A stretch of DNA of 64,000 bases from Strigops habroptila. Lineage: Eukaryota; Chordata; Aves; Psittaciformes; Psittacidae. The notes beneath the pieces were generated by a model that worked only from the letters and a program-made list of their open reading frames with translations, was not told the origin of the DNA and made no database searches. Positions 3,355 to 40,000 of this stretch are shown piece by piece. The translations under genes and the position numbers were made by a program. Positions within the stretch are counted from its first letter, which is position 1. Each line of letters begins with the position of its first letter. The stretch covers positions 10,400,707 to 10,464,706 of the forward strand of contig NC_044291.2 of the NCBI RefSeq assembly GCF_004027225.2, written 5' to 3'.

Positions 3355-24869
<21,515 letters not shown>

Positions 24870-34000: not shown

Positions 34001-37000
34001 AACGTTGCTGGAACTCCGACAATTTTTGCTCCTCTGCTTTTTTCGAGTGCTTTAGAGCTGCAAGCTGAAAGACAAGAACTAGAGCCCATCAGTTACAGCC
34101 CCCTTCAGTGTCACCCACCTTAAAACAGTTTCTGCTCAACCCAGAGAACAATGCAGATAAGGCAGAAGAGATTGTAGCTGTTGATGTCAGTCTCAGATTA
34201 AAGCATCTCAGCTCTCCTTTCAGAACTGCAGCAGTAAATTCACTGATCCACCAACCCAATGGAACAGACACAAGTACAAACACATCCCGTGGACAAACCA
34301 AATTCCATAACAGTCAAGAAGTTAAAGACAAGCCACACTTAGGTGGGAAAGGCTGGTTACAGTTACTGGTTATTTGGCATTACATTTCAGCCCTTTACCT
34401 TCTCTTCCAATTGGGACACCTGCTGCTGCAGGGAATCTCTCTGCTCACACACCTCCTGGTACTGTCTCATGTGCTGCTCCTTGGCTGAGGCCAGCGTACG
34501 CTCACATTTAGCTTCCCACTGGGATTCCAGCTCTGCCTGAATGAGTGACAGCTGCCCATCATGTAAGAGAGATAATTAGGAATGCAGACACACACAATGG
34601 TATTTGCACAAGTGGCTAAAAGCTTGAGGCTGGACAACATGGAACACCTCCGTGCAGACGGCAGCCCTGCAGCCGTCACCAGCGCCTGCCCACACCTCTC
34701 ACCTCAATTCCAGCCACAATCCCGCAGGCTGGCCTGAAGCTCTCACTCACATTTCAGATCTCTTGGCATGTTTCTTCTAAGCAGTCTCTCATCAGCAGTC
34801 CTGTATTTTTCTCTCTACTATTGAGCCCAGTTTGGTGCCTCTGCTTTCCTCAGTTTGACACTCTTTAACACAGACTACATCTGATGCTGCCTGCCAGCCT
34901 GCATCAATGCTGCAGCAAAACTCTGCAGCCGTATCAGTGGCTTGGGTTTCAAGTCAGAGAACAACTGGGACCTTACAGCCTTCCTGCCAACCCAAATCAG
35001 GCACTGCCTTAGAAAGACAGTATAAATCCTGAAGTCAGAAGCAGGGCCAACAAACACTAGCAAAGATATTTTAGAAAGACAACAAAGTGAACCCTGTGTT
35101 AAAGTCAACCCCTAAAATCAAGCTGGTAATGTTTTCATTCTTCCACTACCTGAGCATTTGCACAACTATTCCCTACCTGTAGGTTCCTACAAGGCTTCCA
35201 GACACTTGTTGAAGCTCCCCTGACTCCTCACCTGCTCTGCTGCTGCCTGGTCAGTCGAAGTCCGTGTCTTTTTCAGCAGCTGTCGAAGCTTGTCCAGCTC
35301 CTGCTGATAGGATCTGCGGATTTCTTCCATCTCCTCCTCTGCCTGAGCTCTCTCCGACAGGGATTTCTTCTTCCTCTCTGCAAGATTCTGTGATACAGAA
35401 CAGGACACAGAATAGGCCAGACTGCACCTAAGAAGCTTCTCTCCCTTGTGCAGAAAGAGCTGCTTTGAGCAGGGAATCTTATAACTTTAAAATCAAGCTG
35501 AGATTATTTTAAAGGTAAGAAAGTTGACATATTACTGGCCAAGATGTTAAAAAAGAAATCTAACAAAAAACCCACATATGCACAAAGGATGCACCAGCAC
35601 AGGTATCCTTCCTGCTGCTGAGTCAAGATTTACCCAACTTGCATATTTACACAGAGTCATAGCATGGTTAGGGCTGGAAGGGACCTTAAGATCATGATTC
35701 TATGATTCTAACATACAAGAATATTGAGTTAAATTTTAGCAAACTGAAACCCTGTGTCTCTGTGATGCTGGCACAGGACATACCCTTTCAAGGGTCTCCT
35801 TCTCCACTTTCAGGTCCGTCAGCTCTTCTTCCAGTGCTGAGATCTTCATGTCCAGCTGTTTGCGGCTCTGCTTCTCAGCTTTGAATCTGGTCTGAGTGTC
35901 CTCAGAGGCTTCTTGAAGCTCTGCAAAAATACACTTTACTGTGGGTTTCAGCACTACATATATTTCAGGTGAGCACATTTGGGGCTGAGGGGAAGGAACA
36001 GTCTCTTGCACAATGAGATCAACAACACAGCTTGCACCTGAATGGGGACTAGACTGACAAGGAGCAGCTTCTGTGAAATGGCAGTGCTTAAACCTCAGCT
36101 TTTCACTTTTCAACTACTGGAACATTTCAGTTCCTCTACAAGGTTTAGACAGTAATGCCAAGAGATTGCTTCTGCAAGAGGGATCCCGGTCATGGGATGA
36201 TTTTGTTCATTGATTCCTTTTAGTGCTAACAAGGATGCACATACTCTTCAGTGCATCAATATCCTCCTTCAATACCCTATGAGTGACCCTTGGGAAAGCA
36301 GGAATAGATACCCCAGAAGAAAGGAAAAGCCTATGACTTACAAAAGAGGAAAACCAATGACAAAGGAGCTCTGCTGGAGCAGGCACAGGAAGCCTCACCT
36401 GCTAACTGTGCTTGCAGCTTGTTGAGCTGCGTCTCGTGCCGCTCGGCCTCCTGCAGGGCAGCAGAGAGCTGCTTCCGCAGGTCCATCTCCTTCTTCTGGT
36501 GGGCAGTCAGCTCCAGCTGCAGCTGGGAAACCTGTGCTGTGGCAGCTGCCAGCTCCTCTGCAACTTTGGCCTGTACCACAAAATGGAGCAAGGGAGGAAA
36601 AAGGGATCTGTGAGTGTGAGGAGGCACCACAACTGTTCTCGCAGGAAGAGCTGACAAGGCACTGGAGACGTTATCAGGGAAGTGCTGATCCAGCACCTCA
36701 CAGACATCCCCAAACTGAAGATGTAACGATAAGGTTTTTTGCCATGTTACTGTGTTTGGCTGTAACCTGTCCACACTGACTAGGAAGTTGCACAGGGCCA
36801 CCACCTTATCACCACATCAAGTCAACTCAGCGAGCTTTCCCTGAAAAGCTTAAATTTGTTTTTAAGAGTAGCAGCAGTGCCTGGTGGCTCTGCCCAGAGT
36901 TTTCAGGCTATGACAACTTCTATTCAAGTACAAACCTGGGCTCCAACATCTAATTATCTTCAATAAGCTTACAAATGACTGAAAAGCCACACAAAACACA

Positions 37001-40000
37001 GGCTTGTTCCAGCCACAAGAGCACCTTCCCTTCAGAGCACTCAGCACATAGTCACCTTGAGGTGCACACACGGGCAGGGCTGGCATTCTGGAGCACAGAT
37101 CTCAAGGTAATTTGTTGACCTGGTTAGATTTAATATTGCTCAGAGTCAGTGACTCATGTAAAACCAGGCACTACCACAGCTTGTCAGACAACTTGTAAAC
37201 AATATGGTAGGAGAGGCTCAAGGCAAAGTCACGTTCCCAATCTTGTTGCACGACACACGAAATTCAGAGGATGCTCTGCAAAGATAGAACTACACCCAGC
37301 AGAAAACCTCACTTGCTGCAGGGAATACCCAAACAGCTTCTATATCTATGCCTACAGTCAGATTCCCAACAGGCTTTCACATTATTGTAACTGCTAAGTT
37401 CAGGAGCACTGGAGTTTCTCTCTGCTTTATTCCCATAAGAGAACTAGAGTGTTTCTCTTCAGGCTAGGACCACCACAAAGAAGATTTGTGAGCAAAATTG
37501 TTCCAACTCTGGTGTGGATGAATATGTGCTGACCTTGAGGCCTGGGATACCACACCATTGATTTTAAAGAGGAGGCAGCATTTCAACAGACACTTCCTAA
37601 ACCCAGATCTGCTTTCCTCTGATGTTTCCGTACATGTGTCTCTGCAGTTCAAGATGCTAACTCCTCGCATGCTAAAAACAAAACCCTGTGGCATATCTAA
37701 AGTGGTTTTTTAACACTTATCTTTGTCTTTAATGGCAAATAAAGAAAAAAAGGAAATCCTATGCCAGGAACTGTTACTAGACTTAAGTTTCTGCAGCAAA
37801 TGCTTCATATCTATACTAGCTCAGCTCCAGCCTCCAGCTTTCAGGTACCAAGAATCTTACGTGATCTGTATCTCCTCTGACAATTACATGATCACGTCCT
37901 ATTCCTCCCATGGGGGAGGTGAAACAAGCAGCAATGTGCCAAAGTTCTTTGCAAGGGCTCCCCAAGAAAGAAGGGGCCAGTGGCTATACTGCCAGCTAGA
38001 AAGCCCTCTTCCAAAGCCCTTTTCCAAATGGAAGATCCATGCTAATTCAAGATCTGAGGCAATTCTTTTGATGCCAATCAGCTTCTAGCTATGGAAGAGG
38101 AAGCTGGGCTGGCACTACCCAGGGCACAGTTATCTATGGCCTACACAGTCAGCAGACACACTGCCTCACCTGGTCCCAGCCCCGATCCACTGGCAGCATG
38201 TGCTGGGAAGAGAAAGCAGTGACAGGAAACAGGGAGAGTTAAGAACACAACTTGAAAGGCAGAGGTGTTAATCATCATCAGAAAAGCAAAATGCTTCATT
38301 GCAGGAGCCTAAGACATGCCAGAGAAGCCTTTAAATTATTCCAAGAACTGTAAAAGCTTTTACAGAAAAAGGTAGTGAAGCCTGGCCTAAAAAGAAAGAA
38401 GCTAAAGGCACATTACACTCTGCAGATGTAGGAGTAGTGGGTCCTACAGCACTTCCCTGCACTGGAGAGTGTGGGGTGTTACTGTCATTATGGGACACAA
38501 AGCCTTCACCTAAAGCTGCAATGTGCTCTGCCGGGGTTGAAGAGCTAACACTCAAAAGCAGGAAGCTACTAATACCTCTTCTCAGTGATCCTGGGCATAG
38601 ATGCCTGGCCTTTATCACAAAATAAATGGTGAGTCCCTATTTTTGATTAAAGAACAGATAAAATAGCTTAAAACTGTCTGCAACTGCAGTCACGGAGCAA
38701 GCTAGCTTAGATAAAAGGAAGAGGAAGGAATATCAGCCTTCACATTTACAGTCAATACTCTCACAAAAGCAGGGGAAATCACCCAGTGCAAGTCATCCCG
38801 GCTTTTCTGGTGCAGCCTGAAGCATGTAACAGTGTTCTCACCAGGCAGTGACTGCTGGATCAAGTGGAGGCCTATTGAAGATGAGGCCCAAAAGATTCCT
38901 GAAGATCATCTTCTACTTCCCAAAATATTTCCTCCCCAAGCTACTTACTGCACAAGGTGGATGTTGTGCTGACTGAAGGAATTTTAGTTAGTATTTCAAT
39001 CTGACTTATTCCTGGTCAGAATCTCTCACGCTCCCTACATATTACAGGTGTGCAGCCTGGGCTCTCAGTGTTAAAACACAGTCCTCCTTCACTGCCTGCT
39101 CACACCAGCACGCAGTTATCAGCCATGTGTTGGGCTGTTCTTTAGCACACTTTTTGGCATATTTTGGAAAGCTGCACTTTGTCATGGTTCTCATGCAGGG
39201 CAAGCATTTATCATCTCACATTTGGAGAAATGCACAACTCAGCAGGGGAGCATAGTGCAAGACTGAACTTGGTGTTATTTAAGAAGCCAGTGCTTGAGAA
39301 AGCATAGAAGACACCATGCAATTACTGACCCTGGGCTAAGCTGTCCTAAGTGGACACTACAGGATATGCAGCCATGCACAGTGCATTTAAGTGGTTTGAA
39401 AGCTATTTCCCAATAGCCCCTTTCACAAAAGCACAACACATTATTGGTAGAAACAAACAGCTCTTGATTAGTATTAAAAAAAAGTGCAAAAGTGCAATGA
39501 AGAAACTTTAGTAGGAAATAGTTTCTTACAGCTACATTCATTCTATATCAGTTAAATACAAAGCTCTGTGATACACAATTCCTCATATGTTGGTTATACA
39601 CCTACAAAGTTGACAATAAATCAGACACTTCCCCGTAAGGTATATGAATATGAAAGCTATGACAGCATAAAGATCCCCATTTATAGCCTCTTGTGCTGAC
39701 TTTGTCATGAAAGCCATGAGAACATTCAAAGTGTTTCTCAGAACAGCTTTCAAAACCTAAGTCCAGAACTTCATGTGTCTTGTAAGAGAACTGACTTAAG
39801 CCTTGACTAACAAGGCTTCAGCATGTTTTAGTGCCACCAGCAGCCCCCCTCCTGGCTGCAGCCAGAGGTTGACGGCTCTGCTCATTGTCACCATTACCTT
39901 CTCCTGCTCTGCATGCAACACTCTTGCCTGTGTGTTTTCAGTTGTTGTTTGCAGGGAATGGTTCCTCTGCTCCATTAGCAAGTTACTTTGCTCGACGTAT

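Follow-up and report, generated by a model that had tools for sequence, protein, structure and literature searches.

An exon-like 33-nt element in a long FKBP15 intron of Strigops habroptila: intronic pseudoexon or cassette microexon?

The FKBP15 locus and its 33-nt element

The stretch of Strigops habroptila DNA analysed here (64,000 nucleotides, hereafter the window) carries on its minus strand the gene FKBP15, the coiled-coil exons of which match the Pfam family PF23649 (FKBP15). The protein is an endosomal, actin-linked scaffold. Two of these exons, both on the minus strand, frame the region of interest: the upstream one (39898..40000, RYVEQ...AEQEK) spans PF23649 positions 49-83 and ends in phase 0, and the downstream one (36399..36570, AKVAEEL...) spans positions 84-139 and begins in phase 0. 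Direct reading places between them, on the same strand, an intron of 3327 nt (36571..39897). A first-pass annotation of this DNA had taken it for the largest intron of the gene, which is likely, yet unproven since the exons around 46.4-42.1 kb could not all be placed. In the human protein, EK is presumably followed directly by AK at this junction, with nothing between them.

Inside this intron, at 38202-38170 on the minus strand, we read ...CTGTTTCCTGTCACTGCTTTCTCTTCCCAG/CACATGCTGCCAGTGGATCGGGGCTGGGACCAG/GTGAGG, with CTGCTTTCTCTTCCCAG as the acceptor sequence and CAG/GTGAGG as the donor. The candidate exon thus delimited has 33 nt, which is divisible by three and falls within the 3-51 nt range of microexons; it contains no stop, and its 11 codons are open when read on from the upstream exon, which leaves off in phase 0 at 39898. 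Since the exons on either side meet in phase 0, inclusion would keep the frame. The acceptor region (38203..38252, minus) consists of a polypyrimidine tract and CAG, and scores 11.7 against a consensus matrix; upstream, a branch-point-like match to yUnAy, TTAAC, sets its A at -37, and the nearest AG lies as far as -50, leaving an AG-free zone before the acceptor. The donor (38164..38172, minus) scores 11.3 of a maximum of 12.6. The GC content of the candidate, 67%, lies above the 44% that the intron averages, and only 1.8% of the 33-mers of the intron are this rich. The minus-strand acceptor, the 33-nt open frame, the donor and the phase-0 flanks, as the first-pass annotation had described them, are all borne out by direct reading, and the candidate is a well-formed exon-like element.

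Strength of the splice sites

Splice sites were scored with a consensus matrix rather than with MaxEntScan, and the identical matrix was applied to exons, controls and shuffles. The sum of the candidate's two sites, 23.0, exceeds that of all 18 FKBP15 exons scored (range 10.0 to 22.1), while individual exons among the 18 surpass it in acceptor alone or in donor alone. Pfam guided the choice of these exons in the coiled coil, and resemblance to human FKBP15 guided it elsewhere. The scoring leaves aside exon 1, which has no acceptor, the exons near 55.6, 54.7 and 53.2 kb and the last one near 31.0 kb, as well as exons around 48.7-48.0 and 46.4-42.1 kb and others with ends that could not be fixed. 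A home-made gene finder, which over-predicted (92 exons), served solely to propose exon ends. At 47249-47201 (minus) lies an FKBP15 exon that is itself of microexon size (49 nt), with a very strong acceptor (13.6), and which we take to be an ordinary exon of the gene.

On both strands of the window, a sum of at least 23 at a length of 3-51 nt is reached by one other pair, 14494-14538 (plus). Lowering the sum to at least 21 adds two pairs, both on the plus strand, 12871-12900 (30 nt) and 10565-10576 (12 nt). By their likeness to human LRSAM1, we take 14494-14538 (45 nt) and 12871-12900 to be true exons of that gene. The pair at 10565-10576 (acceptor 11.9, donor 10.3) makes a 12-nt microexon-like candidate in its own right, on what is presumably the sense strand of LRSAM1.

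How often chance assembles such an element

Shuffling the 3327-nt intron 6000 times at order 2 produced 61 pairs with a sum of at least 23 at 3-51 nt (pairs being counted, not shuffles); in 24 the length was divisible by three, and 12 of these had an open frame as well. When the whole window was shuffled, 60 times at each of three Markov orders, pairs of the same strength and length appeared at 0.017, 0.117 and 0.083 per 64-kb strand, of which the in-frame and open subset amounted, order by order, to 0, 0.033 and 0 per strand. A control of 400 kb of strand from the same genome (twenty 10-kb stretches, both strands) contained 0 pairs at a sum of at least 23 and 2 at 21 or more; with a GC content of 39% and 43% against 50% in the window, it may understate the local rate, the 44% of the intron itself being close. 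The argument of the first-pass annotation was that three independent requirements (strong acceptor, strong donor, and a length divisible by three without a stop) coincide within 33 nt. They do, but chance alone brings them together in about 0.2% of trials in this intron (12 pairs in 6000 shuffles). With a chance of about 0.2-1% in one intron, and many introns to draw from, such cases must be commoner over the gene or the genome, and the candidate, while unusual, stays within the reach of chance.

This arithmetic can be extended to the genome. With about 450 Mb of intron in sense orientation, an assumed figure, the mean in-frame rate of the window shuffles and the rate of the intron shuffles extrapolate, roughly, to about 70-270 chance cases per bird genome. 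PMC4317164 counts 1480 alternative microexons in human brain. Multiplying that number by a few per cent, which is our guess for the share having sites this strong, would leave perhaps a few tens of real alternative in-frame microexons of this strength per genome. It is this genome-wide arithmetic, and not direct evidence, that makes us lean towards a pseudoexon.

Strong pairs are also found antisense to FKBP15, where no exon of this gene can lie: one of 155 nt at 35814-35968 (plus), with a sum of 24.0, and three more above 21, all four longer than 51 nt. The pair at 35814-35968 may be a decoy or an exon of an unrecognised antisense transcript.

Consequences for the coiled coil

When the candidate is skipped, residues 1-122 of the joined exons align to positions 18-139 of PF23649 with 188 bits and without net gap at the junction; when it is included the score drops to 169.8 bits, a cost of 18 bits. 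At the level of the family profile, this shows that skipping is the norm, while inclusion at times would still be compatible with it. The heptad register, followed with a simple score of our own, runs constant over the skipped junction; with the element included, the register is shifted and that score falls to 1.4. By this simple measure, the earlier contention that inclusion breaks the coiled coil holds.

A protein search of the bird's own genome scored 12 candidates and gave three matches, which are the three genomic FKBP15 exons, so that among the matches reported no retrocopy reveals the spliced form. With the downstream exon alone as query, phmmer retrieved no solved structure at E <= 0.001.

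Pseudoexon or cassette microexon

We lean, with measured confidence, towards the candidate being an intronic pseudoexon, and in our reading this is likelier than a cassette microexon. Strong acceptor-like and donor-like sequences would have been paired by chance in a long FKBP15 intron, and the spliceosome would skip the result or include it merely as low-level noise. The sites, the open frame and the continuity of the profile over the skipped junction are observed; the lack of use we infer, and it could have several reasons. Without enhancers, 33 nt may be too little for exon definition; an acceptor that lies 184 nt upstream and is the stronger of the two may compete for the common donor; and the acceptor tract may base-pair with the donor. 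Counted against the pseudoexon are the scarcity of equal pairs (one other in the window, presumably a real LRSAM1 exon, and none in the 400-kb strand control), the AG-free zone, the branch-point match and the exon-like GC content.

The stem in which acceptor tract and donor can pair has a folding energy of -28 kcal/mol. It is no stabler than shuffled sequences (z 0.09 for the minus strand and -0.20 for the plus), which speaks against structural selection on it; about 11% of the 77-nt stretches of the window fold equally well, and a longer context folds otherwise. For these reasons, the stem adds little to the case for a pseudoexon.

The main rival is the cassette microexon that the first-pass annotation had proposed, which we regard as possible though doubtful. 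Tissue- or stage-specific inclusion would add 11 residues, with a Pro/Gly hinge breaking the heptad register, and this hinge may alter the dimer length or the partners of an endosomal and cytoskeletal protein. Its two sites, which together outscore those of any FKBP15 exon among the 18, speak for it, as do the open frame between phase-0 flanks and the rarity of the whole arrangement in the 6000 intron shuffles (just 12 pairs) and in the 400-kb control (0 pairs). So do the pyrimidine tract and a UGC at -16: UGC-type motifs are tied to SRRM4, and the candidate has one, the motif being too short to weigh much. That FKBP15 has another short exon, the 49-nt one described above, points in the same direction, and human FKBP15 has a cold-repressed alternative exon (PMC12446472). 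Against inclusion stand the PF23649 family profile, which does without the element, and the stronger competing acceptor at 38386.

Comparison with known classes of short exons is instructive. Like the 45-nt and 30-nt LRSAM1 microexons of the window, presumably constitutive, the candidate combines a strong acceptor with a strong donor; theirs presumably continue a conserved reading, whereas the candidate is absent from the PF23649 profile. With intronic pseudoexons it shares the nature of a short intronic stretch with good sites and a decoy-like acceptor nearby, and it differs from them in being in frame, open and endowed with sites unusually strong for its length in this window. With the human set of alternative microexons in PMC4317164 it has the following in common: 33 nt, a multiple of three, an open frame, phase-0 flanks, a pyrimidine-rich acceptor and a host gene tied to the cytoskeleton. 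There are differences too. According to the same paper, it is constitutive human microexons, not alternative ones, that have unusually strong sites, and the alternative ones show an enrichment of TGCATG downstream and a preference for disordered regions. The candidate has very strong sites, lies in a conserved coiled coil, and is free of TGCATG in the 200 nt flanking it on each side (GCATG occurs at +128 and -117 only), so that in site strength, TGCATG and disorder alike it departs from alternative microexons. It should be kept in mind that TGCATG, the downstream RBFOX motif, is enriched near alternative microexons and not required.

What stands of the earlier proposal, therefore, are its facts of sequence and the break of the coiled coil. 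Tissue-specific, regulated inclusion finds no support, given the missing TGCATG, the conserved coiled coil and the strong sites, and the element keeps the status of a candidate. A literature search gave no paper pairing FKBP15 with a microexon, and none on the candidate exon, as judged by titles and the opening of abstracts. If real, the element would be a frame-preserving switch that interrupts the coiled coil of a scaffold linked to endosomes and actin; if unused, it makes a useful example of how exon-like intronic sequence can appear. Under either reading, and barring RNA evidence, it is ordinary.

A competing acceptor upstream

The acceptor at 38386..38405 (minus), which shares the donor of the candidate, scores 13.2, the highest among the acceptor-like sites listed in the intron. 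Together they delimit an exon-like stretch of 217 nt (38386-38170) that shifts the frame and, read in phase 0, runs into a stop after 8 codons. No other minus-strand pair of 3-250 nt exceeds their sum of 24.5. One might thus imagine a poison cassette with two acceptors, in which the 217-nt form, of a typical exon size, would be the main product, its early stop marking the mRNA for decay, and the 33-nt form a by-product. The leading score, the leading pair sum and the phase-0 stop favour this view; the acceptor, however, has no yUnAy match within 60 nt and is preceded by an AG that ends 15 nt upstream, and comparably strong pairs are found antisense too. We consider it improbable.

Other uses of the sequence

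It would surprise us just as much if the sequence served as an alternative terminal exon or as a non-coding hairpin RNA. Should the donor go unused, the frame stops after 17 codons, and polyadenylation-like signals follow downstream in the intron (ATTAAA at 37733 and 37134, AATAAA at 37431), but the nearest of those listed is more than 400 nt away. As for a hairpin, the candidate can fold into one stem; against this stand the fold z-score of 0.09 and the Rfam search, which found no family at gathering score anywhere in the window, so that a known non-coding RNA is ruled out, and gave four weak matches in 37700-38700, all far under their gathering scores.

The origin of the sequence was considered separately. 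In a self-BLAST against the window, the intron and the candidate with 150-nt flanks matched only themselves, which speaks, as far as the window goes, against a repeat or transposon origin, and a repeat search found in the intron only short and weak repeats. Exon duplication is rejected as well, for the window holds no second copy of the candidate even when up to 3 mismatches are allowed. As was to be expected, nothing turned up in viral contigs searched with the downstream exon and with the 33-nt pattern, or in prokaryote contigs searched with the pattern.

Least probable of all is a conditional hinge in FKBP15, in which acceptor-donor pairing or a G-quadruplex at the donor would make inclusion, and with it the Pro/Gly break in the coiled coil, depend on temperature or on RNA-binding proteins. 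The cold-repressed alternative exon of human FKBP15 has G-quadruplexes near its splice sites (PMC12446472); the candidate need not be its counterpart, and the link is a lead only. Folding with G-quadruplexes allowed chose none at the candidate. The sequence is G-rich across the donor, where the best 25-nt G4Hunter value is 1.28 (start 38188), above the threshold of 1 used for cold-repressed exons in PMC12446472, although the two scores may be computed differently. Within the intron, 3.5% of the 100-nt spans reach 1.28 and 13.8% exceed 1.
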